From Closterium sp. NIES-65 (Eukaryota; Streptophyta; Zygnematophyceae; Desmidiales; Closteriaceae), in NCBI GenBank assembly GCA_948144175.1, contig CANXME010002414.1:162501-226500 (forward strand): a DNA stretch of 64,000 nt. Direction: 5' to 3'. Below are positions 3,554 to 55,318 of this stretch, in pieces (positions within the stretch are counted from its first letter, which is position 1; each line of letters opens with the position of its first letter). The notes beneath the pieces were generated by a model. That model made no database searches and had not been told where the DNA came from. It saw nothing but the letters and a program-made list of their open reading frames with translations. The translations under genes were made by a program, and so were the position numbers.

Positions 3554-3639
3554 TTATGATAAAATTCAACTCTTAATACCTACAACATCAAGAAGACATG
3601 CCTACCCGGAAGGAGAGAAGCTCCTCCAACGGCTGACGA

Positions 3640-4391: not shown

Positions 4392-4523
4392 TGTGAGAAT
4401 GAGAACGAGAATGGAATGACTGTGAATGAAGTGAGTACATATAGGAAACCCTAATTGGGTTGTACCCCCTATGGGATACCCCACTATAGCCTACACAAAT
4501 AAATAAGCTATAATGTTTTGACA
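4392..4523 (-). repeat. 3' LTR of copia A
   Basis: 132 bp, the partner of 11580-11711. Next to it inside the element is the run CCCCCATAGGCAAAGTGGGG (minus strand: a purine-rich tract ahead of the LTR), conserved in all relatives here. Confidence 0.9.
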
Positions 4524-4737
4524 CACCCCCATAGGCAAAGTGGGGAGAACAAGGGGTCAAAAGACCAGTCAAGCAAAGCAAGGCAAAGCTCAGGGTGGAT
4601 CACAAAGTCACCACACATTCCGAGCACAAGCTCAAAGGCCAAAAGGCCAGTTCACGTGCAAGAACACATATATATAGATATAAAAGAGGCTAAGCAAGCA
4701 AGAGCAAGAGTATATATAAGTGACGGTACAAGCAAGG

Positions 4738-7700
4738 TCAAGAAGTGAGCAAGTGAGGCAAGACAGGCACAAGACCCAACTGAGTGCAAAAGCGCTGATG
4801 ATCACAAGGCGCAAGTGCCTTGGTGAAGACATCAGCAGTGTTGGCCTCAGAGGCCACGTACGCAAGCCGCAACTGTCCACGCTGCTGTAGCTCACGAGCA
4901 AGAAAGTAGCGGAGAGCAATGTGCTTTGTCCTGTGCTCCAGTCGCTGCTCTCGACACAAGGCCAGCATGGCCTTGTTGTCTACGTACAGGACTGGAGGAG
5001 AACGAGGCGGCTCTCTAAGGTCGGTCAGCAGGTAGGTGAGCCAGCGAAGCTCCTGGGCAGCCATAGCCCCGGCGTAGATCTCAGCCTCACAACTGGAGCC
5101 GAGAACAGAAGACGAGCGGGTAGCCCGCCACGAAACAGAGCCGGAACCGAGGTTGAAGGTGTAACCCTGTGACGACCGCTGCGTAGCCTGGTCGTCAGCC
5201 CAAGAAGCGTCCGCGTGCCCAGTGAGGACCACTGGACTCCGCCCTCCAAGCACTAGCCCCATGCCCGACGTACTGCACAGGTAGCGCAACACCCTCTTCG
5301 CTGCAGCCATGTGCTCTGGTCGGTGTCTCCCAGGAGCAACATAGCGTGCGAGAATGCTAAGAGGGTATGCAAGGTCAGGTCGAGTGCAGGTCATCAGGTA
5401 CATGAGGCAGCCAACAAGCTCTGCATACGGGCCACTCGACTCTACGGACTCATCCGAAGGCAGAGCTGAGAGCGAGTGGCGAGTAGGCCGAGGAGTGGCC
5501 TGAGGCGAAGAGTACGTGAAGCCGAAGCGCTGAAGGACCTGCTGCACCATGTGTGACTGAGTCAAGGTAATGGTGCGGCGTGCTCTGTCCCGGGTGATCT
5601 GCAAGCCAAGGTAGCTGCGCAGTTCACCCAGGTCAGTGCACGTGTGTCTCTTCTGCAGCTCGGACTTCACGTAGGCGAGTCCAGCAGTGTCAGCAGTGGC
5701 AAAGACCAAGTCGTCGACGTACACGAGGATGTAGAACGGCGGCAGAGAGGTGTCGGTGCGTAGAAACAGCGACGGGTCGGCAATAGAAGGAGCAAACCCA
5801 AGAGCCGCGAACGTAGTCCTCAGTGTGTCGTGCCACTCACGGGGCGCCTGGCGGAGACCGTAGACTGGACGCCGGAGACTCCACTGGGTACCAGGAGGGA
5901 AAGACCCAGTGAAGCCAGGTGGGCGGCGCAGCCAGATCTCCTCGTGCAGGCTGCCCTGCAAGAACGCAGTGCTGAAGTCGAGAGAGTGCAGCTCGTAGTC
6001 ACGGTGAGCAGCAACGTGCAGCAGTACCCGAAGAGTGGTCATCTTCGGGGTGGGGGAGAAGGTCTGAAAGTAGTCAACCCCCTGCTGCTGACTGAAGCCA
6101 CGAACCACGTAACGCGCCTTGAAGACAGGCGGAGAACATGGCGGCCGCTTCACCCTGAAGATCCACATGCCACTGACGATGTTCGCCCCAGGAGGGGGGA
6201 CAGCGTCAACGTAGGTGCTTGTGGACTTCCAGGAAGCCATCTCTGCATCCATAGCTGCCTGCCACTGAGAGGAGTAGGGACCCTCTATCGCCTCCGCGTA
6301 AGAGCGCGGAGTCGGGATGTCAAGTGCATCTGGGTCTCCCTCAGGGGTAAGCAGTACGGACAAGAGATGCGGTGAAGCGGCTGCCAGGCACTGGAACTCC
6401 TCCTGCCTGTCCTCGAGGACGTCCGTGCCAAGGGCACACTCACCCCCGACGGACGGAGGACAGACAGACTCAGACTCTGCGACAAGACTAGCAGTGTAGT
6501 CTAAGCGACAGCGAGCAGCAAAGTCGACGAGCTCAGTAACGAGGGCAGACGCAGCAGAAGACTCGAAAGAAGGGTCAGTGACGACAGTAGCAAGGAAACG
6601 CGTGACAGTAGGACTGGCAGCACGAAGAGAGTACGACTCCGGGTCGGCAAGAGCAGGAAGAGAGGACTCAGGAGGAGAAGGTAAAGGGGCACGCAGAGGA
6701 GCAGTGGACGGGCGCAGTGACATCTGGTGCGTGCCAGGGACAGAAGGAGGACGCTGACGCGAACTGCGACCACTAGCGCATGCAGGACGAACAGGTGACG
6801 CAGGACGAGACGCCGGCTCACGACGCTCTGTAAGACCTCCAGTAGGACCAGCGTAGGGAGAAAGAGCAGGTAAGGGGGAAGTAGGCTGTAGCTGTGACTG
6901 GGACAGGACAGGCTGTGGACGCTCTAAGAGAGGAGGAGAGCCAGTAGAAGGTGGAAGACCAAGAACCTGCTGCAGGAGTGGAACGAAGTACGGTCGAGGC
7001 CGCGCGGCGACGCCAGACACAGCAGGGACAGCACCAGTATCCCCAGCAGGAGCACCCGCTCCAGTAGCACCTCCAGCAGCACCCCCAGCAGCTCCACAAC
7101 CCCCAGCAGCACCAGGAGCACCGCCAGCAGGACCGCTAGCGGTAGTCCCAGCGCCAACACCCTCAGCAGCACCAGCTCCAGTCGAACCCGCAGGCCCAGC
7201 AGCTCCAGTACTCCCAGTACGAGCACCTCCGGGACCCGCGACAGCAGCACCCTCAGCAGTCGAAGAACCTCCAGTACCAGCAGTACGCCTCCAGCGCTGG
7301 GCAAGCCACTCACGCAGCTCCTGTGGGGAGAGTGGCTCTCGGCGAGACGAAGCACCCGGCGAACCTCCAGGCGAAGAAACTCCAGGCTCAGCACCCCCAG
7401 GCACAGCACCTCCAGGCTCAGCACCCCCAGGCTCAGCACCCCCAGGCTCAGCACCCCCAGGCACATCACCCCCAGGCTCAGCACCCCTAGGCTCAGCACC
7501 CCCAGGCTCCGCACCCCCAGGCTCAGCACCCCCAGTCTCAGCACCCCTAGGCACAGTACCCCTAGTCGCAGCACCCCTAGGCTCAGCACCCGCAGCAGCA
7601 CCAGAGTCACCAGTGACCTCAACAGGCTCGACCGCGTCTACCTGGGACACACCTGAAGGGGCAGGACCCTGAGGGGGGAGGGGGTCTACCGGGGGGGGAC

Positions 7701-9607
7701 CTGGTACCAAGAAGAGCGGGGGTGGGGGGAGGGACGGAGTGCGGTAGGGGAAGAGGCGGTAGTAGGGTACCGACTCGTCGAACGTGACGTCCTGGGAGGA
7801 CAGAACACGGCGAGAGGTGGGGTGGTAGAACTGCCACCTAGGGGCGTTGGGGGGGAACCCCAGGAAGACGCAGGGAGCAGCACGAGGGGACAACTTGTCC
7901 GCAGACAAGTCGCGGACAAACGCACGAGATCCCCAGACCCGGAACGCCGACGCATCGCCAACCTTCCCCGTCCACAGCAGGGCTGGGGAGGTCTCCGGCC
8001 TGGAGACTCTCGGGTGAAGGTTGATCTGGTGCGCCGCGTACCTCACCGCAAACGGCCACAGAAAATGGGGGGCAGCCGCATGCATCATAGACGTACGAGC
8101 GACGTCCATGACCATGCCAATGCGGCGCTCAGCAATCCCATTTAGCTGCGGTGAGTCCGGAAGCGTGAAGGTCTGACGGATGCCTCGCGCACGACAGTAG
8201 GCTCGCAGAAGGCCAGAGGAGAACTCTCCGCCTCTGTCCGAGTGCAGACGCAGAACAGGAAAGTCCGAGCCAAAGCTCTGCCTGAGCTGGAGACGAGCTG
8301 CGCGGATCTAGTCGATCAGCACCGCAGAGACATCACCCTTGCTGCGCAAAGGGAAGACTGTGGTGTAACGCGAGTAGTCGTCAACAACAAGCAGGAAGTA
8401 GCGCTCGTGACCCTGTCCACGGACGCGGGCGGGGCCCCACACGTCCATGTGAAGCGTCTGCAACGGGGCCTCAGTCGGAGGAAACTGGGAGGAGTGAGGG
8501 GCAGCACGCTGGCGCCCCTCGACACAGGGGACACAGGAAGGGCCAGGGCCCTGAGGAAGGGGAGGGAGGGACCGGGGGAGACCAGACACAAGAAGACGGG
8601 AGGCCATGCCTCTCAGCCGAAGCAGAGAGGGGTGACCAAGGCGGTGGTGCCAGAGGAGAGTCTCGTGAGACAGGAGACGACACGAACAGGGGGCAGACCC
8701 AGGACCAGACCTGGACGCTGCAGTAAACACCTGACCAGACGCAGGGACCCTTCCAGACTCAGTAACTGGGGGGGAAGCAGTGGTCAGTGTGTACAGGCTC
8801 GACCCTGGCTGACGGGTAAACGTAGCCAGGTGTCGACCTGTGCTAGCCTCTGTGCAGTGCGTCACCCGCTGACGAGCAGGGGTGAACTGGTGGACTCCCG
8901 CATCCTGTAGGTCAGCACCACTCACCAAGTTCGTAGAGAACGAGGGGAGGTAGAGACCAGACAGGGTGCCAGAGGGAGCCGCCGGACACGGGAGGACAGT
9001 GGAGAAGCGAGACAGGACAGGACCCCCTGAGGGGTCAGCCAGGGAAACTGCAACCGGCCGACTAAGCGGCGTAAGTGTGGTGCGATCCCGAAAGAAGGAG
9101 CGAGAGGGCCCAGAGTCAAGGGTGAAGGTGTGAGAGGCCGAAGCCGACGTAGTACCTGAGAGTGCAGACTCACCAGTACCTGGGGACGCAGACACACTAG
9201 CACCCAGAGCAGCAGCGTCGCAAGCACCTAGGGCAGCAGCCTCACCAGTACCTAGAGCAGCAGTCTCAATGCCCGGGTCGGGCGGAAAACACCGGTAACA
9301 GTCACCCTCATCACTAATAGTCACAGCATACATGGCAGCAAGGATAGCATCAAAGTCAAGATCAAAGATGGCTACGCCAGCCCTAGACAGCTCTCCCCAG
9401 CGGGGGATCTCCGTGGCCTCCGGAAACTGCTGACGCCAAGCGTCCGTCAGGCGCCCAAAACAGCGCTGGGTGGGGTGGGCACCCCCACACTGCTCACCCT
9501 CGCGGTGGCCGGTGCGAAGGACGTAGGTGCAGGGACCAAGACCCCCACCACGCTGACGCTGCGTGTACCACTCACGGAGCTGCTGAGGGGTGGGGACGTC
9601 GCGAGAA

Positions 9608-9638
<31 letters not shown>

Positions 9639-10674
9639 ACTGACCACCCCTAGTGCCGCTCCGCTGTGAAGTGCCACTCCGACCACCTCCACCACCTCCT
9701 CCTCCACCTCCTCCACCTCCGCCACTGCCGCCACCCCCGCCAGTACCGCCGCCGCTGACGCCGCCTCCGCCACCACTGCTGCCACTAGCACCCCCACCCC
9801 CACCACCTCCTCCACCGCCACCCCCACTCCCTCCGCCGCCTCCACCTCCACCGCCACCGCCCCCGCTAGCCCCACCCGCTCCCTTGCCCCCCTTGCCCTT
9901 GCCAGGGTGACGTCTCCCGCTAGGGGCAGACGCCGCACCGACCGACTCAAGACCAACGACGTCGGCCGCAGCGGCAGAGGCGACAGAGGGCAAGAGAGGG
10001 GAAGGAGAACACCCCTCAAAGATGGGGGCGCGGGGGTCACCTCGAGAGGCACCTACAGCGACGATGCTCTTCTCCGCTGCTAGGAGGGCCTTCTCTAGGC
10101 TGTCGACTGTGAGAGTGGTGGGACAGACCGCAAGGAAGTGGTCCCGGACTACACGAAGGGAGTCGGGGAGGCAGGTGACTAGAAAGTAGAGAGTGATGTA
10201 CTTGGGGGGGGGGTTCTTGGCGCAAAAGTCAGCAGGAAGCGCAGCGCGGTAGCGGGTGTCACTAGTGCGGAGGTGCGTAATGAGATCAGCGACTGTGGGA
10301 AAGGCGGCAAGGTCAGGGAAGAGGAAGGGTAGCATGAGGCGGCTCAGTGCAGCAGTGGCAGGGGAGGAGTAGCGCGCAACTACAGCGTCGTACAAGGTCT
10401 GAGCACTCTTGTACTGACTAAAGTGCGCACGCTCAGAGGTGGGGAGGTGGCGACGCACAGCAAGACGTGCAGCAGCATCGCGCGTAGTCCACTGGGAGCG
10501 AACAGTAGGGTCAGCATCAGCAGCAGGGGCAGGGGAAGCGCCAGAGGTAAGGTCAAAGAGAGAGAGGCCGTCTGCCCTATCGCACTGTAAGAATAGCTGC
10601 AGGTTATCTACCCAGATCTCAAAGTCAATGGCCCGACCCTCAGCGTCAAAAGCGAGGACACTGGGGATAGCCAT
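4738..10674 (-). pseudogene. Copia A gag-pol polyprotein, one nonsense codon
   Basis: About 1,978 codons from the ATG at 10674 to the stop at 4738, in one frame, interrupted by a TAG at 8308-8310 where relatives have Trp. Order: Gag (MAIPSVLAFDAEG start); a long Gly tract; the CCHC motif C-x13-C-x3-H-x4-C; protease with DSG (LDSGPS; relatives have DSGAS); GAG-pre-integrase zinc site (HHRLGHPS, then CVPC); integrase core with DVWGP and SDRGGEF; a GGAEP-repeat linker; RT with YVDD (about 5715-5726); RNase H with HADASW and YVDNKA; a C-terminal LPHLLTS. The stop lies between the first and second integrase Asp, so RT and RNase H need readthrough. The one lesion suggests recent activity. Confidence 0.9.
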
Positions 10675-10739
10675 GACGACAGACGCCTAGCAGTGCAAGC
10701 AGTAGGGTGAGGGCAGTGCAGTGAAAAAGAAGGCTCTGT

Positions 10740-11460
10740 GCTCACCAGACTGGGCAGAACGGGCGGTCTCGAAGTAGGGCAGCTTAGCGGCTGGCGGCTC
10801 GGCTGCTGGGCGGCTCGGCTGCTCGGCGGCTCGGCTGCTGGGTGGCTCGGCGGCTCGGCTGCTCGGCTGCTGGGCGGCTCGGCGGCTCGGCGGCTTGGCT
10901 GTTGGGCGGCTCGGCTGCTGGGCGGCTCGGCGGCTCGGCTGCTGGGCGGCTCGGCGGCTCGGCGGGCAGCTGCTGGGCGGCTCGGCGGTCAGCGGCTGGG
11001 CGACCCGGCGGTCGGGCGGCTCTTGTTCAGGGCGGCGCGGCGGTCGTAGGTAGGGCGGCGGGTGGGCCGCAGAGTAGGGCGGCGGGGCCGTGATGTAGTA
11101 CGGCTGGGTCGTCGAAAAAGGGCGGCGGGGCCGCAACGTAGGGCGACGGGGCCGTCGAAGTAGGGCGGCGGGGCCGCGAAGGGTAGGGCGGCGGGGCCGC
11201 GACGTAGGGTAGGGCGGCGGGGCCGCGACGTAGGGCGGCGGGGCCGTCGAAGTAGGGCGGCGGGGCCGCAACGTAGGGCGGCGGGGCCGTTGAAGTAGGG
11301 CGGCGGGGCCGCGACGTAGGGCGGCAGGGCCGCGACGTAGGGCGGCGGGGACGTCAAAGGGTAGGGCGGCGGGGCCGCGACGTAGGGCGGCGGGGCCGTC
11401 TAAGGGTAGGGCGGCGGGGCCGCGAGAGTAGGGCGGCGGGGCCGCGACCAAAAAGGCAGC
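10740..11460. repeat. GC-rich leader minisatellites of copia A
   Basis: Two arrays: about 10790-11040, built on GGCTCGGCGGCTCGGCTGCT; and about 11050-11450, units of about 20 bp with core GGGCGGCGGGGCCGCGACGT. Both lie between the primer site and gag. Open frames here are low-complexity shadows. Confidence 0.8.
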
Positions 11461-11579
11461 GCGACGGGCCGCTAGGGGGAGGGCGACACGACGGGTCGCT
11501 AAAAAAAAGAACGCGCGCCTCGGGCGCGCTTCGGTGGGCCCAAGAAACAGTCCCTAGGAGGGGACCTGCTCTGATTCCA

Positions 11580-11711
11580 TGTGAGAATGAGAACGAGAAT
11601 GGAATGACTATGAATGAAGTGAGTACATATAGGAAACCCTAATTGGGTTGTACCCCCTATGGGATACCCCACTATAGCCTACACAAATAAGTAAGCTATA
11701 ATGTTCTGACA
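11580..11711 (-). repeat. 5' LTR of copia A
   Basis: 132 bp. The primer site lies next to it at 11568-11579 (minus strand TGGAATCAGAGC). Confidence 0.9.
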
Positions 11712-28497: not shown

Positions 28498-28631
28498 TGT
28501 CAGAACATTATAGCTGATGCATGTTTGTAGGCTATAGTGGGGTAGCCCATATGGGGTACAGGTTCCTAGGGTTTGTTATTTGTACCAATTTCTGACTTAG
28601 TCATTTCATTCCCTGTTTACCTATCTTCACA
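28498..28631 (+). repeat. 5' LTR of copia D
   Basis: 134 bp, TGTCAG to TTCACA. The primer site TGGTATAGAGCGGG follows at 28632. The LTR carries the family core TAGGCTATAGTGGGGTAGCC. Confidence 0.93.
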
Positions 28632-28839
28632 TGGTATAGAGCGGGTCCCTCTTAAGGACCGATTTTTTTTAGGGCCCACCCACGATATTCTCTCTGCCCG
28701 GAGCGCCCTACTCTCCCCGAGGCGCGCTCCCCCCCCCCCCCTTAGTGCATTTCCCGCTGCCTTTGTGGGCCCCCCGCGAGTCGCGCGCGAATTTTTTTTT
28801 TAGCGCGCGCGGCTCGGGCCCACGTCGCGCGGGCTTTAC

Positions 28840-29570
28840 GGCCGCGCCGCGCCGCCCTCTCGGCCCGGCTGCGCCCCACCGCCCTCGAACCGGCCACGCG
28901 GCCGCTTCGTCGCGGCCGCGGGCCCTGTTTCTGACGGCCCCGCCGTCCCTTTTTTGACGGCCCGCCGCTGCATTCTGCCGGCCCCGCCGTTTCCTGTCAC
29001 GGCCCCGCCGTCCCCTCTCCCGGCCCCGCCGCTGCACCTTCCCGGCCCGCCGCTGAGCCCTGACGGCCCGCCGCTGCACCTTTTGACGGCCCGCCGCTGC
29101 ACCCTTTGACGGCCCGCCGCTGCACCCTGACGGCCCGCCGCTGCACCTGTTGACGGCCCGCCGCTGCACCCTGTCGGCCCGCCACTACACGTGTCCCGGC
29201 CCCACCGGCGCACCTCTGCTGGCCCCGCCACTGCACACCTGGCCCCGCCGTCCCCTGTCCCGGCTTGCCGCTGCACCTGTCCCGGCCCGCCGCTGCACCT
29301 TTTCCCGGCCCGCCACTGCACCTGTCCCGGCCCCGCCGGCCTCTGTCCAGGCCCCGCCACTGCACTGCGGCCGGACCGCCCAGCAGCAGCCGAGCCGCCC
29401 AGCAGCAGCCGAGCCGCCCAGCAGCAGCCGAGCCGCCCAGCAGCAGCCGAGCCGCCCAGCAGCAGCCGAGCCGCCCAGCAGCATCCGAGCCGCCCGGTAC
29501 CCGGGCCGCCCGAGCCGCCCGAGCCGCCCGAGCCGCCCGAGCCGCCCGAGCCGCCCGAGCAGCCCGAGCG
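28840..29570. repeat. GC-rich leader arrays of copia D
   Basis: Units on CGGCCCGCCGCTGCACC (about 28970-29360), then CAGCAGCCGAGCCGCC (about 29385-29490), then GAGCCGCCC (29510-29560). The frame is open from upstream of the gag ATG, giving a possible Pro-Glu-Pro repeat extension; the conserved start at 29626 is preferred. Confidence 0.8.
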
Positions 29571-29625
29571 GCCTGCTGCTGACCTACCCGACTCTCCCAT
29601 CCCGGTGAGACTTTCAGCTGCTGCC

Positions 29626-32600
29626 ATGGCCACCCCCAATGTTCTCACTTTTGACGCTGAGGGGAGGGCCATTGACTTTGCCGTCTGGATCGAGGACCTG
29701 CAGCTGTACTTACTGTGTGATGCGGTAGATGAGGTCTCTCTCTTTGACTTTGTCTCTGGCGCTGTCCCTGCCCCGCCTGCTGATGCTGACTCTGCCGTTC
29801 GCTCCAAGTGGGCGACCCGCGATGCTGCTGCACGTCTTGCTGTGCGTCGCCACCTCCCTTCCTCTGAGCGTGCCCACTTTAGTCAGTGCAAGACCGCTCA
29901 GGCCTTGTACGACGCTGTAGTTGCGCGCTACTCCTCCCCTTCCTCCGCTACCCTTAGCCGCCTCATGCTACCGTTTCTCTTCCCTGACCTCGCTTCCTTT
30001 CCCACTGTTGCTGACCTCGTTACCCACCTCCGCGCTAGTGACACCCGCTACCGCGCTGCCCTTCCTGCTGAGTTCCGCGCTGCGAACCCTCCTCCCATGT
30101 ACATCACTCTCTACTTTCTCGTCACCCGTCTCCCTGAGTCCCTTCGTGTCGTTAGGGACCAGTTTCTCTCTGTCTGTCCCACCACTCTCACTGTCGACCT
30201 CCTTGAGGAGTCCCTGCTAGCGGCTGAGAAGAGTATTGTCGCTGTAGGGGCCTCTCGGGGTGACCCTCGCACCCCCATCTTTGAGGGGTGTGGTCCTTCC
30301 CCCCTGCTGCCCTCTGTCGCCTCTGCCGCTGCGGCCGACCTCGCTGGTTTTGAGTCGGTCGGCGCGGCGTCTGCCCCCAGCGGCAGACGCCGCCCTGGCA
30401 AGGGCAAGGGGGGCAAGGGAGTGGGTGGAGCTAGAGGGGGCGGTGGAGGAGGCGGTGGGGGTGGAGGGGGGAGTGGGGGTGGCGGTGGGGGTGGTGGCGG
30501 GAGTGGAGGTAGTAGTGGCGGCGGTGGAGGCGGAGGTGGCGGCGGAGGTGGTAGCGGAGGAGGCGGTGGGAGCGGTGGGAGCGACGGTCCTAGTGGGGGA
30601 GGTGGCGGTGGAGACGGGGGTGGCGGTGGAGGCGGGGCTGGCGGTGGAGGAGGGGGTCGGAGTGGCTCGTCCCAGCGGAGCAGCTCTGGGGGTGGCCAGC
30701 GCCAGCAGCAGCAGCAGCAGCAGCCGCAGCAGCAGCCGCAGCAGCAGCAGCGCTCTCGCACCGTCCCCGGCCCTCAGCAGCTCCGTGAAATGGTACTTGC
30801 AGCGTCAACGCGGTGGTGCGCTTGGTCCCTGCCCCTACGTTCTTCGCAGTGGTGACCGTGCAGGGGAGAGGTGTGGAGGCGCCCACACGGCCCGTCGCTG
30901 CTTTGGCCGCCTGACCGACGCCTGGCGTCAGCAGTTTCCGGAGGCCGCTGAGATCCCCCGCTGGGGAGAGCTGTCTAGGGCTGGTGTAGCTATTTGTGAT
31001 CTTGACTTTGATGCTATTCTCTCTGCTATGTATGCTGTGACTGGTAGTGATGAGGATGACTGTTACCGGTGTTTCCCGCCCGACCCGGGCATTGGTACTG
31101 CCGCGTCAGGTACTAGTGAGGCTGCTGCTCTAGGTGCCAGTGCGTCTGTGCTCTCAGGTACTGGTGAGTCCGCCCTCTCAGGTACTCTGTCGGCTTCGGC
31201 CTCTCACACCTTCACCCTTGACTCTGGAGCGTCTCGCTCCTTCTTTAGGGACCGCACCACTCTCACGCCGCTCAGTCGGCCTGTTGCGGTGTCTCTGGCG
31301 GACCCCTCTGGGGGGCCTGTCCTGTCTCGCTTCTCCACTGTCCTCCCGTGTCCGGCGGCCCCCTCTGGCACCCTGACTGGTCTCTACCTCCCCTCGTTCT
31401 CGACGAACTTGGTGAGTGGTGCTGACCTCCAGGATGCGGGTGTCCACCAGTTCACCCCTGCTCGTCAGCGGGTGACCCACTGTACGGAGGCGGATACAGG
31501 TCGCCACCTGGCTACGTTTACACGTCGGCCGGGGTCGAGCCTGTACACACTGACCACTGCTTCTCCTCCAGGTACTGCGTCTGGTAGGGTCCCTTCGTCT
31601 GGTCAGGTGTTTGCCGCAGCGTCCAGGTCTGGTCCTGAGTCTGCCCCCTGTTCGTGTCGTCGTCTGTCTCACGAGACCCTCCTCTGGCACCACCGCCTTG
31701 GCCACCCCTCTCTGCTTCGGCTCAGAGGCATGGCCTCGCGGGTCCTTGTGTCTGGTCTTCCCCGGTCCCTCCCTCCCCTTCCTCCGGGCCCTGGCCCTGC
31801 CTGTGTCCCCTGTGTCGAGGGGCGCCAGCGTGCTGCCCCTCACTCCTCCGAGTTTCCTCCGACAGAGGCCCCGTTGCAGACGCTTCACATGGACGTGTGG
31901 GGCCCAGCCCGCGTCCGTGGACAGGGTCAGAAGCGCTACTTCCTGCTGGTGGTTGACGACTACTCGCGTTACACCACAGTCTTCCCCTTGCGCAGCAAGG
32001 GTGAGGTCACTCAGGTGTTGATCGACTGGATCCGCGCAGCTCGTCTCCAGCTTCGGAGGAGCTTTGGCTCTGACTTCCCTGTTTTACGTCTGCACTCGGA
32101 CAGAGGCGGAGAGTTCTCCTCTACCCTCCTGAGTGCCTACTGTCGTGTGCGAGGCATCCGTCAGACCTTCACGCTTCCGGACTCACCACAGCAGAATGGG
32201 ATTGCTGAGCGCCGCATTGGCATGGTCATGGACGTCGCTCGTACGTCCATGATGCATGCGGCTGCTCCCCATTTTCTGTGGCCGTTTGCGGTCAGGTACG
32301 CTGCGCACCAGATCAACCTCCACCCCAGGGTCTCTCGACCGGAGACCTCCCCAGCCCTGCTGTGGACGGGGAAGGTTGGCGATGCATCGGCGTTCCGGGT
32401 CTGGGGATCTCGTGCGTTTGTCCGCGACCTGTCTGCGGACAAGCTGTCCCCTCGTGCTTCTCCCTGCGTCTTCCTGGGGTTCCCCCCCGACGCCCCTGGG
32501 TGGCAGTTTTACCACCCCACCTCTCGACGTGTTCTGTCCTCCCAGGACGTCACGTTCGACGAGTCGGTACCCTACTACCGCCTCTTCCCCTACCGCACTC

Positions 32601-35599
32601 CGTCCCTCCCCCCACCCCCGCTCTTCTTGGTACCAGGTCCCCCCCCGGTAGTCCCCCTCCCCCCTCAGGGTCCTGCCCCTTCAGGTGTGTCCCAGGTAGA
32701 CGCGGTCGAGCCTGTCGAGGTCACTGGTGACTCTGGTGCTGCTGCGGGAGCTGAGCCTGGGGGTGCGGAGTCTCGGGGTGCTGAGCGTGGGGGTACTGTG
32801 CCTGGGGGTGCTGAGCCTGGGGGTGCTGAGCCTGGGGGTGCTGTGCCTGGGGGTGCTGTGCCTGGGGGTGCTGAGCCTGGGGGTGCTGAGCCTGGGGGTG
32901 CTGAGCCTGGAGGTGCTGTGCCTGGGGGTGCTGAGCCTGGGGGTGCTGAGCCTAGGGGTGCTGAGCCTGGAGGTGTTGTGCCTAGGGGTGCTTCGTCTCG
33001 CCGGGAGCCACTCCCCCCACAGGAGCTGCGTGAGTGGTTTGCCAGGCGCTGGAGGCGTGCTGCTGGTGCTGGTGGTTCTTCGGCTGTGGAGGGTACTGCT
33101 GCCACGCGTCCTGGCGGTGCTCGTACTGTGGGTGCTGGAGCTACTGGGTCTGAGAGTTCTCCTGGAGCTGGTCCTGCTGAGGGTGTTGGCGCTGAGCCTG
33201 CGGTTGGCGGTCCGACTGACTGTGCTCCTGGTGCTGCTGCTGGAGGTTCTGGAGCTTCTGGTGGTTCTGCTGGAGGTGCTGCTAGAGTGGGTGCTCCGGA
33301 CGGGGCTGCTGCTGCTGTTCCTTCTGTTTCTGGTGTCGCCGCGCGGCCCCGACCGTACTTCGTTCCGCTCCTGCAGCAGGTTCTTGGTCTTGCACCTCCT
33401 CCTGCTCCCTTAGAGGGTCCGCGGCCTGTTCAGTCACAGCCACAGCTACAGCCTGTCTCCCCTTTGCCTGCTCCTTCTCCCTACACTGGTCCGACTGGAG
33501 GTCTTACTGAGCGTCGTGAGCCTGCGTCTCGTCCTGCGTCGCCTGTTCGTACTGAGCGCGCTAGTGGTCGCGGGTCGCGTCAGCGTCCTCCTCCTGTCCC
33601 TGGCACGCACCGGATGTCACTGCGTCCGTCCACTGCTCCTCTGCGTGCCCCTTTGCCTTCTCCTCCTGCTTCCTCTCTTCCTGCTCTTGCCGACCCTGAG
33701 TCAGACTCTCTTCGCGCTGCCAGTCCTACTGTCACGCGTCTCCTTGCTACTGCTGTCACTGACCCTTCCTTCGAGTCGTCTGCTGCGTCTGCCCTTGTCA
33801 CTGAGCTTGTCGACTTTGCTGCACGCTGTCGTCTAGACTACGCTGCTCGTCTTGTCGCTGAGTCTGAGTCCGCCTGTCCTCCGTCCGTCGGGGGTGAGTG
33901 TGCCCTTGGCACGGACGTCCTCGAGGACAGACAGGAGGAGTTCCAGTGTCTAGCCGCTACTTTACCCCGTCTCGCGTCTGTACTGCTAGCCCCTGAGGGA
34001 GACCCGGATGCACTAGACATCCCGACTCCGCGTTCTTACGCGGAGGCCGTAGAGGGTCCCTACTCCTCTCAGTGGCAGGCAGCTATGGATGCAGAGATGG
34101 CTTCCTGGAAGTCCACAGGCACCTACGTTGACGCGGTTCCCCCTCCTGGGGCGAACATCGTCAGTGGCATGTGGATCTTCAGGGTGAAGCGGCCGCCGGG
34201 CTCCCCGCCTGTCTTCAAGGCGCGTTACGTGGCTCGTGGCTTCAGTCAGCGGCAGGGAGTTGACTACTTTCAGACCTTCTCTCCCACCCCGAAGATGACC
34301 ACTCTTCGGGTGCTGCTGCACATAGCCGCTCAGCGCGACTACGAGCTTCACTCTCTCGACTTCAGCACAGCGTTCCTGCAGGGTAGCCTGCACGAGGAGA
34401 TCTGGCTGCGCCGTCCGCCTGGCTTCACTGGGACTTTCCCTCCTGGCACCCAGTGGAGCCTCCGACGGCCAGTCTACGGTCTCCGCCCGGCACCGCGTGA
34501 GTGGCACGACACACTGAGGACTACGCTTGCGGCTCTTGGGTTTGCTCCTTCTACTGCTGACCCGTCGCTGTTTCTTCGCACCGACACTTCCCTGCCGCCG
34601 TTCTACATCCTCGTGTACGTCGACGACTTGGTCTTTGCCACAGCGGACACTGCTGGACTCGCCTACGTGAAGTCCGAGCTGCTGAAGAGACACACGTGCA
34701 CAGACCTGGGTGAAGTGCGCAGCTACCTTGGCTTGCAGATCACTCGGGACAGAGCACGCCGCACCATTACCCTGACTCAGTCACACATGGTGCAGCAGGT
34801 CCTTCAGCGCTTCGGCTTCACGTACTCCTCGCCTCAGGCCACTCCTCTGCCTACTCGCCACTCACTCTCAGCTCTGCCTTCGGATAAGTCCGTAGAGTCG
34901 AGTGGCCCGTATGCAGAGCTTGTTGGCTGCCTCATGTACCTGATGACCTGCACACGACCTGACCTTGCATACCCTCTGAGCATCCTTGCACGCTATGTTG
35001 CTCCTGGGAGACACCGACCAGAGCACATGGCTGCAGCGAAGAGGGTATTGCGCTACCTGTGCAGTACGTCGGGCATGGGGCTAGTGCTTGGAGGGCGGAG
35101 TCCAGTGGTCCTTACTGGGCACGCGGACGCTTCTTGGGCTGACGACCAGGCTACGCAGCGGTCGTCACAGGGTTACACCTTCAGCCTTGGTTCCGGCTCT
35201 GTCTCGTGGCGGTCTACTCGCTCGTCTTCGGTTCTCGGCTCCAGTTGTGAGGCTGAGATCTACGCCGGGGCCATGGCTGCACAGGAGCTTCGCTGGCTCA
35301 CCTACCTGCTGACTGACCTTGGAGAGCCGCCTCGTTCTCCTCCAGTGCTGTACGTAGACAACAAGGCCATGCTGGCCTTGTGTCGAGAGCAGCGCTTGGA
35401 GCACAGAACGAAGCACATTGCTCTCCGCTACTTCCTTGCTCGTGAGCTGCAGCAGCGTGGTCAGTTGCGACTTGCTTACGTGGCCTCTGAGGCCAACACT
35501 GCTGATGTGTTCACCAAGGCACTTGCGCCTTGTGACCATCAGCGCTTTTGTACCCAGCTGGGTCTTGTACCTGTCTTGCCTCACTTGCTCTCTTCTTGA
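29626..35599 (+). CDS. Copia D gag-pol polyprotein, one frameshift
   Basis: Gag from 29626 (MATPNVLTFDAEG) runs through a Gly tract and a Gln run. Near 30788 the family motif REWY is broken by one extra base, and the frame continues to 35599. Downstream, in order: CCHC-like motif C-x13-C-x3-H-x4-C; protease DSGAS (Asp near 31220); pre-integrase HHRLGHPS and CVPC; integrase DVWGP (near 31892) and SDRGGEF (near 32098); GGAEP pentapeptide linker (32755-32990); RT with YVDD (34615-34626); RNase H with HADASW, SCEAEIYAG and YVDNKA. These make capsid, protease, integrase, reverse transcriptase and RNase H for cytoplasmic particles and nuclear integration. Relatives read the motif in one frame, so I treat the extra base as a mutation or assembly error rather than programmed shifting. 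All pol motifs are otherwise intact. Confidence 0.9.
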
Positions 35600-35803
35600 C
35601 TTTACTTGTACTTTGACATATATATACTTGCTCTTGCTTGTCTAGTTTTATATATATGTCTGTACTCCTGCATGTGAACTGGCCTCTGGCCCTGCTCTTG
35701 TGCTCGGACTGTGTGGTGACTTTGTGATCCACCCTGAGCTTGTTTTGCTTTGCTTGACTGGTCTTGTGACCCCTTGTTCTCCCCCACTTTGCCTATGGGG
35801 GTG

Positions 35804-35937
35804 TGTCAGAACATTATAGCTGATGCATGTTTGTAGGCTATAGTGGGGTAGCCCATATGGGGTACAGGTTCCTAGGGTTTGTTATTTGTACCAATTTCTG
35901 ACTTAGTCATTTCATTCCCTGTTTACCTATCTTCACA
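35804..35937 (+). repeat. 3' LTR of copia D
   Basis: 134 bp, matching the 5' LTR, preceded by a CTATGGGGGTG purine-rich tract. Confidence 0.93.
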
Positions 35938-37696: not shown

Positions 37697-38039
37697 TGTC
37701 AGAATCCCAACCACCAACCATTGGGATAAAAGGGCTTGTTAAGTAGCGGGTCAGTGCGCCCATAACCCCGCCGGCCAACGTGCCTGTAACCCTCCCCTAG
37801 GATCAATCGGGGATCACCAGTGGACCTCTGACACCCCCCCGCACTGGGATGCCCGAAGTGCATACACCGGGATTCGAACGCGAGACCTTCGCTCTGATAA
37901 CATGTTAGAATTCCAACCACTAACCATTGGGATAAAAGGGCTTGTTAAGTAGCGGGTCAGTGCGCCCATAACCCTCCAGGCCAACGTGCCTGTAACCCTT
38001 CCCTAGGATCAATCGGGGATCACCAGTGGACCTCTGACA
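37697..38039 (-). mobile_element. TRIM copy 1, 343 bp
   Basis: Two 137-bp terminal repeats (37697-37833 and 37903-38039), TG...CA ended, flank a 69-bp interior. CCAAG lies on both sides (37692-37696, 38040-38044). On the minus strand the interior starts TGTTATCAGAGC, an initiator-Met-type primer site, followed by CGTTCGAATCC, a match to the pol III B box. There is no coding. The terminal repeats differ at about seven positions, so it is older than copia D. It is inserted in the integrase/RT linker of element O. Confidence 0.88.
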
Positions 38040-40669: not shown

Positions 40670-43600
40670 TCAGGAGCAACACGGCCCCCACGTCCGTGAG
40701 CGAGTGGTGTATGCCCCAGAGGCCATGGCGTGCAGCACGGCTGGCGATGGGACGGCATAAATCGGCAGCACATGGCGACTGAGGCAGCACAGGTGCAGCA
40801 CATTGCGGCAGGCGCCCTGGCTGAACGGATGGACGTCCCCGGGTACCGACCTGCAGTGTGGTGCAGCACGCAGCGATGGACGGGGAGTGCGCACTCAGTG
40901 ATGCGTCGGCGGACAGGAATGTGCCTGGCATGTCGCACGTCAATGCAGGTGCCTGGCATGTGAACGCATGTGCCTGGGACGTGAAGGTATGTGCATGGTA
41001 TGTCAATGCATGTGCATGGTATGTCAATGCATGTGACTGGTATGTCAATGCATGTGCCTGGTATGTCAAGGCATGTGCCTGGCATGTCAATGCATGTGCC
41101 CGGCATGTCAAGGCATGTGCCTGGCATGTCAATGCATGTGCCCGGCATGTCAATGAATGTGCCTGGCATGCACAACGCACCGCAGATAGGAGATGCGATG
41201 CTTCCTGGTGGCTTCATATGTTGTCTGTGCCGTGAGAATAAGGTGCCTGCATGGCAAAGCACGGCATGGCATGGCGTAACATGACCTCGCATGGCATAGC
41301 ATGGCAAGACACGCAGTCAGCCACAGAGAGGGGAGAGTCGTATAGACATGAGACATGCAGATCAAGTCAGCGAGTCACGAGTGGATGGCAGAGGGACTGA
41401 CGTGTGGCAGAGTGACTTGACTCACGTGTGGCAGAGTGACTTGACTCACGAGTGGCAGAGGGACTTGACTCACGAGTGGCAGAGTGACTTGACTCACGTG
41501 TGGCAGAGTGACTTGACTCACGAGTGGCAGAGTGACTTGACTCACGTGTGGCAGAGTGACTTGACTCACGAGTGGCAGAGTGACTTGACTCACGTGTGGC
41601 AGAGTGACTTGACTCACGAGTGGCAGAGTGACTTGACTCACGTGTGGCAGAGTGGCTTGACTCACGAGTGGCAGAGTGACTTGACTCACGTGTGGCAGAG
41701 TGACTTGACTCACGAGTGGCAGAGTGACTTGACTCACGAGTGGCAGAGTGACTTGACTCACGTGTGGCAGAGTGACTTGACTCACGAGTGGCAGAGTGAC
41801 TTGACTCACGAGTGGCAGAGTGACTTGACTCACGAGTGGCAGAGAGAGTCGACTCACGAGTGGCGGAGGGACTGATGTGTGGCAGAGCGACTCACGAGTG
41901 GCGGAGGGACTGATGTGTGGCAGAGCGACTCACGAGTGGCGGAGGGACTGATGTGTGGCAGAGCGACTCACGAGTGGCGGAGGGACGTGACTCACGTGTG
42001 GAAGCACACGAGGATGGCGAGGAACACGGCGAGCGGCAGCAGCAGCGCCGTGAACGCCAGCGCTGACAGCTGGTGCTCCAGCCTGGTGCCCGGTGGGGAG
42101 GGGGTGGACAGTGGAGGGGGACATGGAAGGTGGTGCATGGATGGCGATGGGGGAGGGCACACGGAAGAAGGGGGTGAGAGAGAGGTGGTTGGCATGCCGT
42201 GGACGGGGTGAGGTGGGCGTGAGGGGAGGTGAGGCAGGGATGGGGCAGGAGGGACGGACCAGTGGTTGGGTGAGATGGGGGCGGTGAAGGCGGAGAGGCA
42301 GATGAGCAGCGACCAGCACGTGAGGCAGCACTCCAACACCAGGTACACCCTGCTCCGCCATGCCGTGCCGTGCCATGCCAGGGGGTGGTAAGAGGAAATG
42401 GTATAAGGGCGTGGGAGCAGGGGGGTGGAGGAGGGGACAAACGCAATAGAGCAATTGATTGTGGTCAAGTGAAAGTGGTTTATTCCGTTATGTGTGGGAG
42501 AGCTACCACAGCCTAATAGCTTAACCTCATGCACATCAGAAACAGGTAGCAGGGGGGAGCGTGGTTACCAGAAGCGCGCGTGGTTACCAGAAGCGCGCGT
42601 GGTTACCAGAAGCGAGCGTGGTTACCAGAAGCGAGCGTGGTTACCAGAAGCGAGCGTGGTTACCAGAAGCAAGCGTGGTTACCAGAAGCGAGCGTGGTTA
42701 CCAGAAGCGAGCGTGGTTACCAGAAGCGCGCATGGTTGCGCAGGCCGATGCATGTGGAGACCCAGAAGCAGTGGTGATCGAAGCGCAGCACACAGCGGCC
42801 GCAGTCGTAGCAGTGCTTGGCGCGCACTGGTTGCTGCACTCGGCAGTACGGGCACCACCGCCGCGCACTGCTGGGATTGAGAAGGTGGGGGGGGGAGTGG
42901 AGGGAGGAACTTGAGGTAGGCACTACCATGGGCAGGAGAGAGTGTCGGAAGCTATTGCAGAGAGATGGGGGGTTGCAAGAGATGCAGCGCAGGAGGCAAG
43001 AGAGAGATGACGTGGTGTGCGCGAGAGGGAGGGAGTGGTGGGGAGACCTGAATTGGGAGACGAGGAAATTTGACTGCGCTGCTGTGAGTCGAGATGGCTG
43101 TGCTGGCAGGGGCAGCAGCAACAATCTTGCCCCTCCTTCCCTCCCTTCAACACCCCCTCCCTCCCCCTCTTCTCCCCCATCACCCTTATTTCCCACCCTC
43201 GCAGCACCCCACGCCCGTGCCCCACAGCAGCTACGTCCCTCCCACTCTCCCTCTGCAGCCTCCGCCCCTCTCTCTACGTCATCGCACGGTGCATCCGCCC
43301 CATCACCACACCAGCGGCACCCCCTGTCCCCGCACCACCTGCACCCCACGTGCCCGCACCACCGGCAGCCGGGCAGGCAGGGGGCGAGCAGGGCCCAGGG
43401 GCCATGGGCGCGCTCAGCACTGGGAGCAAGCGGAAGGGGTTGAGAGTGCAGACCAGACTCCCCCCTGCCCCCCTCGCCACCCCCTTTCCCCCTGGGAGGG
43501 GGCAGGGGCACCACCACGCAGGATGGGGAGGACTGGCGCACAGCCCGTGGTGCAGAGGGGTGGGGTGAGGCGAGGAGAGGAGTGAGGAGGCCGGGGAGGA

Positions 43601-45885
43601 CAGCAGACTCGCCTGCTGCTGCCCTGCGGGCGTGTGACAGGCGGAGCGCGTCGGACGCAGAGGGTGAGGGCGAGGGCGAGGGAGAGGGTGGGGCGGCATG
43701 TGGGAGGGAGGACTCGGGTGGAGTGGACCATCTGGAGGAGGTGAGAGATGAATGGGACGAGTGCGATGGTTGGGATGGATGGGATGCATGGGAGGAGGGG
43801 GCTGCAGCAAGGGAAGCATCATCCCTGCTCGTCTCATCCTTCACCCCATCCAGCAATGCACTCTCACCCCCTTTGACGCCCACCCCATCCACTGCCCCAT
43901 CGCACTCCTCCTCAGCTTCACTAACCCCATCCTCTGTGTCGCCCTTCACTTCAACCTCCCCTGCCCCCTGTGGTGTTGCTGCTGCCGTTGCTGCTGCCAT
44001 TGCTGGTGCCACTTGTGCTGCCACTGCAACTGCAGCTGAAATCGAGTTGGCGGGTGAAGCTGCTCGTCCCGCCTGTGGCGGTGCAGGCGCTGCCTCTGCT
44101 TGCGGAAGAGACACAGTAGGAGCGGGGGACGCTGGTGAAGGCGGTGGCACGGCGTGTGTGGCGACATGGCGTGCATTGGCTGCTGCCACGGCTGCCTGCA
44201 GGCTGCCAGCCACATCCTGCACGTACCTGCCGCCCAGGATGCATGCACACCATTCGCATGCCATTCACACATTCGCATGCCATTCACACATTCGCATGCC
44301 ATTCACACATTGGCATGCCATTCACACATTGGCATGCCATTCACACATTGGCATGCCATTCACACATTGGCATGCCATTCACACATTGGCATGCCATTCA
44401 CACATTGGCATGCCATTCACACATTGGCATGCCATTCACATGCCATTCGGATGCCACTTGCAGGCTATCCACATACCATTCAGATGCCATGCTTATGCCA
44501 TTCCAGTAAATCACATTGAATTCACATGCCATTCACATGCCATTCACATGCCATTCACATACCATTCGCATGCCACTCAAATGCCAATCGCATGCCATTC
44601 ACGTGCCATCCATGTGCAGTTGGACGGTGGATAAAAGGGGTGTGGGAGGCAGGTGATGGACAGAACAACGGCGGTAAGGTTGGGACTGGGGAGAAAAACG
44701 GAGGAACAGAAGAGAACGCACATGCAATGGGGTCATGCACGGAGCTTGGCTCATGCATAGAGCAGAGCGGAGCAGAGCAGATCAGAGCAGGGCATAGCAT
44801 AGCAGAGACGAGCAGAGCAGAGCAGCAGAGCAGAGCGAAGCAAGGAGCACGCACCCAGGCGAGGAGCCCGAGGTGTAGAGGTACTGCAGCAGCGTGGCGA
44901 GGAAGAGCACCCCGTAGCACACCGCTTCCGCCCTGCGCAGTGCGGGGCAAGACGGGGGATGGCGGGAGGGTGTGGGAAGAGGGAAGGTGAATGGGGTGAG
45001 GATGATGAGATGATGCGCGTTGCATTCCAGGCAGTGGCACGCCTGCATGGTAAGCGGCCACTCTCTGGTTACCACATACCGCACATGAAAGCCACCACAT
45101 GCCAGCTGCAGTGGTTACCTACCAGCTGCAGTGGTTACCTACCAGCTGCAGTGGTTACCTACCAGCTGCAGTCGTTATCCTATAACGCTGTGTTGACCAC
45201 GCACCAGATGCTGTGGATACGACACACCACATTTCACACCTGATGTTTACCACGCACGCACGCACCCCACGGGCTGCTGCACAAGGGCCTGCGCGAGCGA
45301 CGTGTTGAGCAGCAGCAGCGCCGCCGGCACCACCACGTGCAGCACCGCCCACCCCACGCGCGCACTCACCGCCGTCTGCTGCGCTGCTCGCGCACGCCGC
45401 GAGGGGCAAGGCATGCAGGGAGGCGCAGAGCGGTGCGGAGAGGCAGAGAGGGGGAACGCAGCGGGGGTGGGGGAAGGCAGGGAGAGGGAGCACAGCGGTG
45501 GATAAGAAGGTAGAGAGGGGGAGCGGGAGAAGTGAGAGGTGGGATGACGGAGAGGAGGTGGGCCGTGGCGACAAGGCAGCGGCCACGCGCCGCTTCCACG
45601 CGCGTGGAGGCGGCCGCGAGGGCAGCAATGAGTCAACAAAGAGCGATCCGGGGCGATCTTAGCGGCAGGACGAAGCAGGTTGGTGGGACGCAACGATGTG
45701 ATTCGCAATCCAGTGTTGGCGCGGATCGGATACGCATTTCTTACACGCCCATTCCCACGCGCACCTTCCTTCACCCTGGCTCGCAGCACGTCGTCTCGAA
45801 TCTCGGGAGTGGGCAGGTCGCTCGACGACCCTCGCTCGTTCGGACTCGGCACCCACGGCAGCACCAGGTTCGGCAGCCGCGCCAT
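40670..45885 (-). CDS. PAT10: DHHC S-acyltransferase, PAT10-like, multi-exon
   Basis: Predicted exons: 45885-45765 (tentative), 45386-45266 (start tentative), 44932-44855, 44226-42721, 42349-42260, 42082-41998, 41246-41181, 40850-40670. The six junctions from the second exon onward are GT-AG and phase 2. Features in order: a short N-terminus, TM1 ([17 protein letters not shown]), TM2 ([16 protein letters not shown]), SPG where many relatives have DPG, a Ser/Pro/Ala-rich stretch, then the Cys-rich domain [23 protein letters not shown] and CIGLRNH, TM3, TM4, TTYE (TTxE motif) and [11 protein letters not shown] (C-terminal PaCCT-type motif). DHHC enzymes auto-acylate on the DHHC Cys and pass palmitate to protein cysteines at Golgi or vacuolar membranes. 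The C-terminal motifs match what I recall of Arabidopsis PAT10 better than other PATs. The large fourth exon may hide an intron ending near 42870. Confidence 0.82.
40930..41172. repeat. 21-bp minisatellite in intron 7 of the PAT10-like gene
   Basis: About 11 units of GGTATGTCAATGCATGTGCA type. The array starts about ten bases downstream of the exon 7 donor (minus strand). Confidence 0.85.
41397..41995. repeat. Splice-donor minisatellite in intron 6
   Basis: About 20 units of 24 bp (TGACTTGACTCACGTGTGGC core, alternating GTG and GAG variants) at 41397-41860, then about 3.5 units of 38 bp up to the donor. On the minus strand the units carry GTGAGT, many after CACAC, repeating the junction CACAC|GTGAGT of exon 6 (41998/41997). 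Confidence 0.88.
42558..42729. repeat. Splice-donor minisatellite in intron 4
   Basis: Nine units of 19 bp. On the minus strand each reads CGCTTCTG|GTAACCACGC or a close variant: the last 8 bases of the DHHC exon plus the donor. The authentic junction (42721/42720) is the first unit. Confidence 0.9.
44245..44625. repeat. 19-bp minisatellite in intron 3
   Basis: About nine units of CATTCACACATTGGCATGC up to about 44440, then looser CATGCCATTCA units to 44620. It lies just upstream of the acceptor of the fourth exon (44226) on the minus strand. Confidence 0.85.
44755..44854. repeat. AGCAGAGC microsatellite at the start of intron 3
   Basis: Irregular AGCAG/AGAGC repeats within about 15 bases of the donor of exon 3. 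Confidence 0.6.
45108..45178. repeat. 20-bp tandem repeat in intron 2
   Basis: About 3.5 units of CAGCTGCAGTGGTTACCTAC. Each unit contains GTAACC and CTGCAG on the minus strand, resembling donor and acceptor signals. Confidence 0.75.
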
Positions 45886-54632: not shown

Positions 54633-54939
54633 TACATCACATATACTTTGACACACCCCCATAGGCAAAGTGGGGGAGAGCAAGGGGTCACAAGACCAGT
54701 CAAGCAAAGCACAGCAAGCTCAGGGTGGATCCCAACGTCACCACACATTCCAAGCACAAGTTCAAAGGCCACAAGGCTAGTTCACATGCAGGATTATATA
54801 AATATAAAGCTAAACATGCAAGTGCATGTATATATATAGGCCACAGTACAAGCAAGGTCAAGAAGTGAGCAAGTGAGGCAAAGTAGGCACAAGGCGCTGA
54901 TGATCACAAGGCGCGAGTGCCTTGGTGAAGACATCAGCA

Positions 54940-55313
54940 TGTCAGTAGATCTGCACTGTGGATGCCCGATTGATCCTGGAGAGGGTTACAGGCGCGTTTG
55001 CCTGGGGGGTTATAGGCGCACTGACCCGCTACTGAAACAAGCCCTTTTATCCCAATGGTCTAGTGGTTGGGATTCTAACTAGTATCAGAGCGGTCTCGGG
55101 TTCGATTCCTGGTGTATGCACATGTAGGCCGTTGCCACTGTGCTTAGTCCTGGGCCTCCCATTGTGGGAGGGTGTCAGTAGATCTGCACTGTGGATGCCC
55201 GATTGATCCTGGAGAGGGTTACAGGCGCGTTCGCCTGGGGGGTTATGGGCGCACTGACCCGCTACTGAAACAAGCCCTTTTATCCCAATGGTCTAGTGGT
55301 TGGGATTCTGACA
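54940..55313 (+). mobile_element. TRIM copy 2, 374 bp, with pol III-like A and B boxes
   Basis: Terminal repeats at 54940-55079 and 55173-55313 flank a 93-bp interior (55080-55172). CAGCA flanks both sides (54935-54939, 55314-55318), and the host sequence, F's 3' end, continues across it. The primer site is TAGTATCAGAGC at 55080. TGGTCTAGTGG at 55056-55066 (end of the repeat) and GGTTCGATTCC at 55099-55109 (interior) match tRNA A and B boxes, with starts 43 bases apart as in tRNA genes. There is no coding. Confidence 0.9.
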
Positions 55314-55318
55314 CAGCA

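Follow-up and report, generated by a model that had tools for sequence, protein, structure and literature searches.

How a retrotransposon of a few hundred bases is transcribed is a question raised by two TRIM copies in a 64-kb stretch of the Closterium genome (hereafter the window, which means the whole stretch analysed). In these copies, A and B boxes of the kind found in tRNA genes lie on either side of the primer-binding site (PBS), one in the LTR and one in the interior. We favour the reading, at a probability of about 0.6, that they belong to a Closterium TRIM family mobilised in trans by Ty1/copia elements, and are transcribed by RNA polymerase III (pol III) from a tRNA-type promoter split by the LTR/interior boundary.

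Anatomy and integration of the two window copies

Copy 2 (54940-55313, plus strand) has an interior flanked by a 140-bp 5′ LTR (54940..55079) and a 141-bp 3′ LTR (55173..55313) of 97.9% identity, the 5′ LTR having lost one terminal base at its junction with the primer site. This primer site is itself mutated (TAGTATCAGAGC, 55080..55091); intact copies read TGGTATCAGAGC, the complement of the 3′ end of the host initiator tRNA-Met. The polypurine tract (PPT), as read from the sequence, is GTGGGAGGG (55164..55172). Copy 1 (37697..38039, minus strand) represents a second subfamily, with LTRs of 137 bp each (38039-37903 and 37833-37697) and the PBS TGTTATCAGAGC at 37891..37902. In both copies TGTCAG starts each LTR, CTGACA ends the 3′ LTR, and an initiator-Met-type primer site and a purine-rich tract preceding the 3′ LTR are present. 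With an LTR pair, a PBS, a PPT and a length of 343-375 bp, the elements are TRIMs as originally predicted (<1000 bp, no proteins). The longest frame wholly within copy 2 has 81 codons and no protein relative was found for it; a protein search with an antisense frame of copy 2 returned nothing. A G-to-A difference between the LTR ends of both window copies looked odd and was set aside, as other copies have it in either LTR or in neither.

Copy 2 is flanked by the target-site duplication CAGCA (54935..54939, repeated at 55314-55318) and copy 1 by CCAAG (CTTGG in the element's own orientation). A copia RNase H frame is interrupted by copy 2. When the flanks of copy 2 are joined, minus one duplication, four further copia copies of the window align across the site at 82-86% identity, providing four empty sites. 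No empty counterpart of copy 1 was found within the 64-kb window; one reading frame continues across its joined flanks.

Several other features were seen in the window. An open frame at 1292-2356 holds a Phage_integrase (tyrosine recombinase) domain (E 3.3e-11), possibly, at a guess, from a DIRS- or Crypton-like element. A frame at 42720-44264 (minus strand) ends in a DHHC palmitoyltransferase domain (E 4.9e-18) and is probably an exon of a host gene. A 28-bp tandem-repeat array runs from 55931 to about 61000; its minus strand holds an open frame of 1662 codons. Two copia elements, at 4392-11711 and 28498-35937, have LTRs of 132 and 134 bp that are 97.7% and 100% identical, respectively; the second is apparently nested in another copia.

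A tRNA-like box pair straddles the primer site

The A box of copy 2 (TGGTCTAGTGG, 55056..55066) lies at the end of the 5′ LTR and the B box (GGTTCGATTCC, 55099..55109) in the interior, beyond the primer site. Their starts are 43 bases apart, and the positions given for the element, for both boxes and for the primer site between them in the original prediction were all verified. Box pairs were scored against TRGYNNARNGG or its 12-base form together with GGTTCGANTCC, with starts 30-70 bases apart, and compared with 1000 dinucleotide shuffles. The pair straddling the initiator-Met primer site of copy 2 has no mismatches, which none of the 1000 shuffles equalled.

The best pair in copy 1 has two mismatches, equalled by 9/1000 shuffles. 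However, the A partner in this pair begins at 37934 and is a different A-like string, lying 8 bases upstream of the true A-box counterpart, and the score is therefore flattering. Copy 1 had been described as keeping a good B box and a weaker A box: the B box (CGTTCGAATCC, 37870..37880, minus strand) stands with one mismatch, whereas the A box (TGGTTAGTGG, 37917..37926, minus strand) is one base short, at 10 bases. On both strands of the 64-kb window there were no further B box pairs at two mismatches or fewer. T4 occurs in both window copies at one and the same LTR position, just 5′ of the A box, and nowhere else. The 3′ LTR of copy 2 carries a second A box that is not followed by a B box inside the element.

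Eukaryotic tRNA-Glu genes have D arms similar to the A-box string. In a public viral collection the string TGGTCTAGTGGTTNGGAT occurs at five places, of which four fall within tRNA genes, two for Asp and two for Glu, and in one of these genes (L004) the A-to-B distance, by count in the sequence, is 43 bases as in copy 2. The PBS plus B-box pattern occurs at three places in viral contigs, which we read as unrelated, and the exact LTR core at none in either IMG/VR or GTDB contigs, records that possibly do not include the window's own genome. As the source of the A box tRNA-Glu gained no support from the host genome: the 14 matches to a strict host pattern divide into 7 with a span of 53 bases and 7 with a span of 56, both spans being those of the element itself, and none could be identified as a host tRNA gene carrying the exact D-arm string.

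The box pair is part of a core kept across the genome

Genome counts cover the 874-Mb, 2400-contig assembly that contains the window. A first look with the copy-2 query gave 1,551 candidates and one with the copy-1 query 759, and the best 40 of each were scored. The best-scoring 40 of the 1,551, taken with their flanks and thus biased toward intact copies, comprise 33 distinct copy-2-type insertions, 28 of which have a perfect 5-bp duplication. Together with the duplications of both window copies and the empty sites of copy 2, this bears out the LTR-type integration that had been predicted. The LTR pairs of the 33 differ by 0-4.3%, bar one mis-cut comparison (0.738), and differences this small point to recent activity of the family.

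Boxes were tallied in 32 rows of these insertions (two share one locus name). The A box fits the consensus in 31 and the B box in 27, and the spacing is 44 in 30; the exact 12-base primer site is present in 26, CAA in 30 and TTTT in 31, and an extra T4 occurs within the unit in one. Intact copies thus carry TGGTATCAGAGC with the boxes 44 bases apart; for copy-1-type units the distance is mostly 47. Eleven such units were taken from the best 40 of 759, a set that is likewise biased toward intact copies and may count one insertion twice where two haplotypes carry it. All 11 have a fitting B box and nine a fitting A box, the spacing among the nine being 47 in eight and 44 in one.

Genome-wide, an exact pattern of primer site (9 bases) and B box (10 bases) was found at 3,559 places and its reversed control at none, the former count probably including haplotype duplicates since some insertions have identical flanks on different contigs. 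An exact A box stands at the tRNA-like distance in 2,610 of the 3,559 units (73%). The box pair thus persists in thousands of units and in two subfamilies. How it compares with the rest of the element depends on the control: the U3 11-mer AGGGTTACAGG, common to both window copies, is retained in 1,834 units (52%), a drop to which subfamily differences and distance may contribute, whereas the LTR 11-mer GGGTTATGGGC is retained in 2,704 (76%). The A box is better kept than the one and not better than the other, and so conservation marks a core rather than the boxes alone.

Among the places listed, some units follow one another on the same strand at intervals of about 205-237 bases, which is what an LTR and an interior together measure. 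Such tandem units were seen at C10:183903/184139 (183903-184193), C105:580805/581010/581247 (580805-581301) and C43:1848515-1848804, those on C105 showing the spans of both subfamilies.

The two subfamilies are about 80% alike. Aligning real copies (L024 and one in L038) with the window copies showed that they share a core of CAAGCCCTTTT, A box, LTR end, primer site and B box, and differ in U3 and the remaining interior. Near-identity runs from about LTR base 60 to GTATGCAC in the interior, the exceptions being three bases inserted behind the primer site, isolated changes close to the LTR/primer junction and one B-box letter. This letter is the N position of the consensus; the copies seen have T, A or G there. 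The 10-base A box is found in three copy-1-type copies (copy 1, L059 and L062). Because both LTRs of copy 1 have it, a copy-1-type element may have been mobile with the short form, which speaks against the promoter reading. L059 and L062 also share a changed primer site (TGGTATCCGAGC); they represent either a lineage that spread with both changes or one insertion on two haplotypes. L063 was found by the copy-1 query yet is without the 3-base insert after the primer site, and may be a recombinant between the subfamilies.

The core is tRNA-like without being a tRNA

A tRNA covariance model had been suggested as a test of the region. No tRNA row appeared at E<=10 in either window copy or in the intact copy-2-type L024, which returned only T-arm rows of tmRNA, from the same clan. 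The highest score came from an intact copy-1-type relative in L038, at 15.8 bits (E=1.6 over all Rfam), below the gathering score of 29; in its alignment the A box takes the place of the D arm and the B box that of the T arm. ARAGORN called no tRNA in the element, Rfam gave none at gathering score in the window copies, and no 5S row was returned at E<=10 in four element copies. A direct tRNA gene is therefore rejected. The suggestion that the element might prime on, or mimic, tRNA found no positive support: no acceptor stem is seen, and the primer site is an ordinary site for the 3′ end of the initiator tRNA.

A tRNA, or a SINE derived from one, could instead have been captured at the LTR/primer junction and now be hitchhiking there with no present promoter role. 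The sub-threshold match in L038 and the occurrence of the A-box string in D arms of real tRNA genes are in keeping with such a relic, and a SINE insertion was proposed by Kojima for the origin of Helenus (PMC10886601). However, U3 and the interior have diverged between the two subfamilies, which are about 20% apart, and both boxes have stayed intact in each; we regard this origin without function as improbable.

A stronger competitor, still unlikely in our estimate, is an ordinary pol II TRIM in which the R-U5-primer region forms RNA hairpins for packaging or priming, the boxes being loops and not promoters. The lowest-energy fold of the core is indeed three hairpins in a row in examples of both subfamilies. 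The first, ATCCCAA/TTGGGAT (55049..55073, plus strand), would present the A box as its loop. The second, UCUGA/UCAGA, would form a 7-base loop from the LTR end and primer site at the place of the anticodon arm in a tRNA; the third resembles a T arm. Across 67 LTR-end contexts the A-box hairpin closes on its loop with A-T in 59, G-T in five and G-C in three, and never with A-C, a pattern with a probability of 0.0012 if the contexts were independent, which they are not; only LTR ends matching the search frame were tallied. Examples of the G-C form are L037 (copy-2 type) and L067 and L068 (copy-1 type). These paired changes favour a structural role for the A-box hairpin too, although the test is weak because the copies are related. 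The equal retention of the nearby GGGTTATGGGC also speaks for this reading.

Set against this, the loops fit the pol III consensus boxes at tRNA-like spacing. Moreover, T-stem position 64 is mismatched in three copy-1-type copies (L061, L065 and L069) with the 11-base B box unchanged, which favours a B box that acts at the DNA level. The whole proposed transcript folds no better than shuffles (z -0.87), and the same is true of the 5′ LTR.

The primer tRNA and a second complement in the LTR

As reference for the host primer tRNA we took the plant initiator tRNA-Met sequence; among 33 host matches, 6 places are identical to it over 72 bases. The B box might be a mere extension of the primer site, given that a T arm looks much like its own reverse complement and pairing with the T arm of the initiator tRNA would imitate a B box. 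One copia primer site in the window does continue with AGGTCGATCC, a near complement of the initiator tRNA T arm. However, copy 2 reads GGTTCGATTCC, which is exact to the sense B box, the sole exact complement of at least 8 bases to the initiator tRNA in that stretch is the primer site itself, and no other copia primer site of the window matches the extension beyond its first few bases (AGGT). On the sense match and the lack of further complement this explanation is disfavoured, and we consider it very improbable.

A second complement to the tRNA lies in the LTR. In the 3′ LTR of copy 2, GGGTTATGGGC (55240..55250, plus strand) is an exact 11-base complement of host initiator tRNA positions 30-40, in the anticodon-loop region, and its 5′ LTR counterpart GGGTTATAGGC (55007..55017) differs by one change. 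A complement of 11 bases was reached by 1-2 of 500 base shuffles for three of the four window LTRs; for the mutated 5′ LTR of copy 2 the complement is only 8 bases, equalled by 57/500. With its primer site and this LTR complement, the element would seem to resemble the complement of its primer tRNA rather than the tRNA.

Known retroelements also contact the primer tRNA away from the main PBS. Ty3 has a 5′-3′ bipartite primer site, so that one tRNA bridges the RNA ends, and HIV-1 U5 contacts the anticodon loop of its primer tRNA. The Closterium TRIM is like both in having a second complement; unlike theirs, its contact is a prediction from complementarity and retention. Since GGGTTATGGGC lies near the 3′ end of the proposed RNA, by analogy with Ty3 one tRNA could possibly bridge the 5′ and 3′ ends.

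A proposed promoter split by the LTR/interior boundary

Returning to the pol III reading, the A box closes the LTR, the B box comes after the primer site, and only a 5′ LTR joined to the interior would make a complete promoter. As no B box follows the A box of the 3′ LTR, only the complete 5′ end would be a promoter. The sequence CAAGCCCTTTT occurs before the A box (55038..55048, plus strand) and again in the 3′ LTR (55271..55281). By comparison with plant tRNA genes, its CAA is the proposed start, about 10 bases before the tRNA-equivalent start, and its T4 (55278-55281 in the 3′ LTR) the proposed terminator. CAA triplets that precede plant tRNA genes by no more than 10 bases are reported to serve as start sites, and about 36-45% of the tRNA genes of angiosperms have one (PMC11700998). 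A transcript from 55038 to 55281 would be about 244 bases long with some 11 identical bases, CAAGCCCTTTT, at both ends; this repeat would serve as R in strand transfer, and initiator tRNA-Met would prime at TGGTATCAGAGC. A weak point is that T4 also occurs about 8 bases after the proposed start and would have to be read through.

Copia is a putative helper. The window copia and the TRIM have the TGTCA start and an initiator-Met-type PBS in common; a comparison within the 64-kb window found no resemblance between their LTRs or interiors other than short matches at chance level. For one copia polyprotein of the window, all 120 listed of 7,462 scored matches are from Closterium, at 66-95% identity, which identifies the host as a Closterium, a zygnematophyte alga.

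We put forward only tentatively a fuller scheme, in which the pol III promoter exists at the junction alone and is absent from 3′ and solo LTRs, the primer site replaces the anticodon arm, the start motif and T4 create R, and GGGTTATGGGC lets one primer tRNA bridge both RNA ends, offsetting a very short R.

Comparison with known TRIMs and implications

The proposal that a tRNA-type promoter would be a new alternative to Cassandra was anticipated by Helenus, TRIMs with tRNA-like LTRs described in 2024 from fungi, animals and Selaginella. That description proposes a pol III promoter (TRIMp3) for them and suggests copia as helper of the fungal forms; plants are represented by Helenus-1_SMo of Selaginella alone, in which LTRs of 120 bp flank an interior of 85 bp (PMC10886601). 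The Closterium element is like Helenus in being a TRIM with conserved tRNA-like A and B boxes, a PBS and a PPT, and like the plant and fungal forms in its 5-bp duplications. However, the tRNA-like sequence of Helenus lies in the LTRs, whereas here the A box is in the LTR and the B box in the interior; on the description available this sets the Closterium TRIM apart, and it is not a member of Helenus as defined.

Transcription of Cassandra is described as starting and ending in the 5S sequence of its LTRs, leaving 18 repeated bases at the RNA ends (PMC10886601). The Closterium element shares with it a plant host, the PBS TGGTATCAGAGC (PMC10886601, PMC7215508) and tandem units that share LTRs, as in Cassandra arrays (PMC7215508). 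Its proposed RNA would also start and stop inside the LTRs with a short terminal repeat (about 11 bases against 18). In contrast to the 5S-derived promoter in each Cassandra LTR, its boxes are of tRNA type and split. SMART (FRetro129) is likewise a very short non-autonomous LTR element with a PBS and a PPT; its LTRs hold a TATA motif, and the terms tRNA, pol III and polymerase III are never used in the text of its paper (PMC3281118).

Thus tRNA-like TRIMs are already in print, and the split placement was not found there: in the open-licence literature we found no account of a promoter cut by the LTR/interior boundary, nor of such an element in Closterium. If pol III does make the RNA, the promoter layout itself would keep solo and 3′ LTRs silent, and the family would offer a clear test of how LTR elements transcribed by pol III acquire their terminal repeats.
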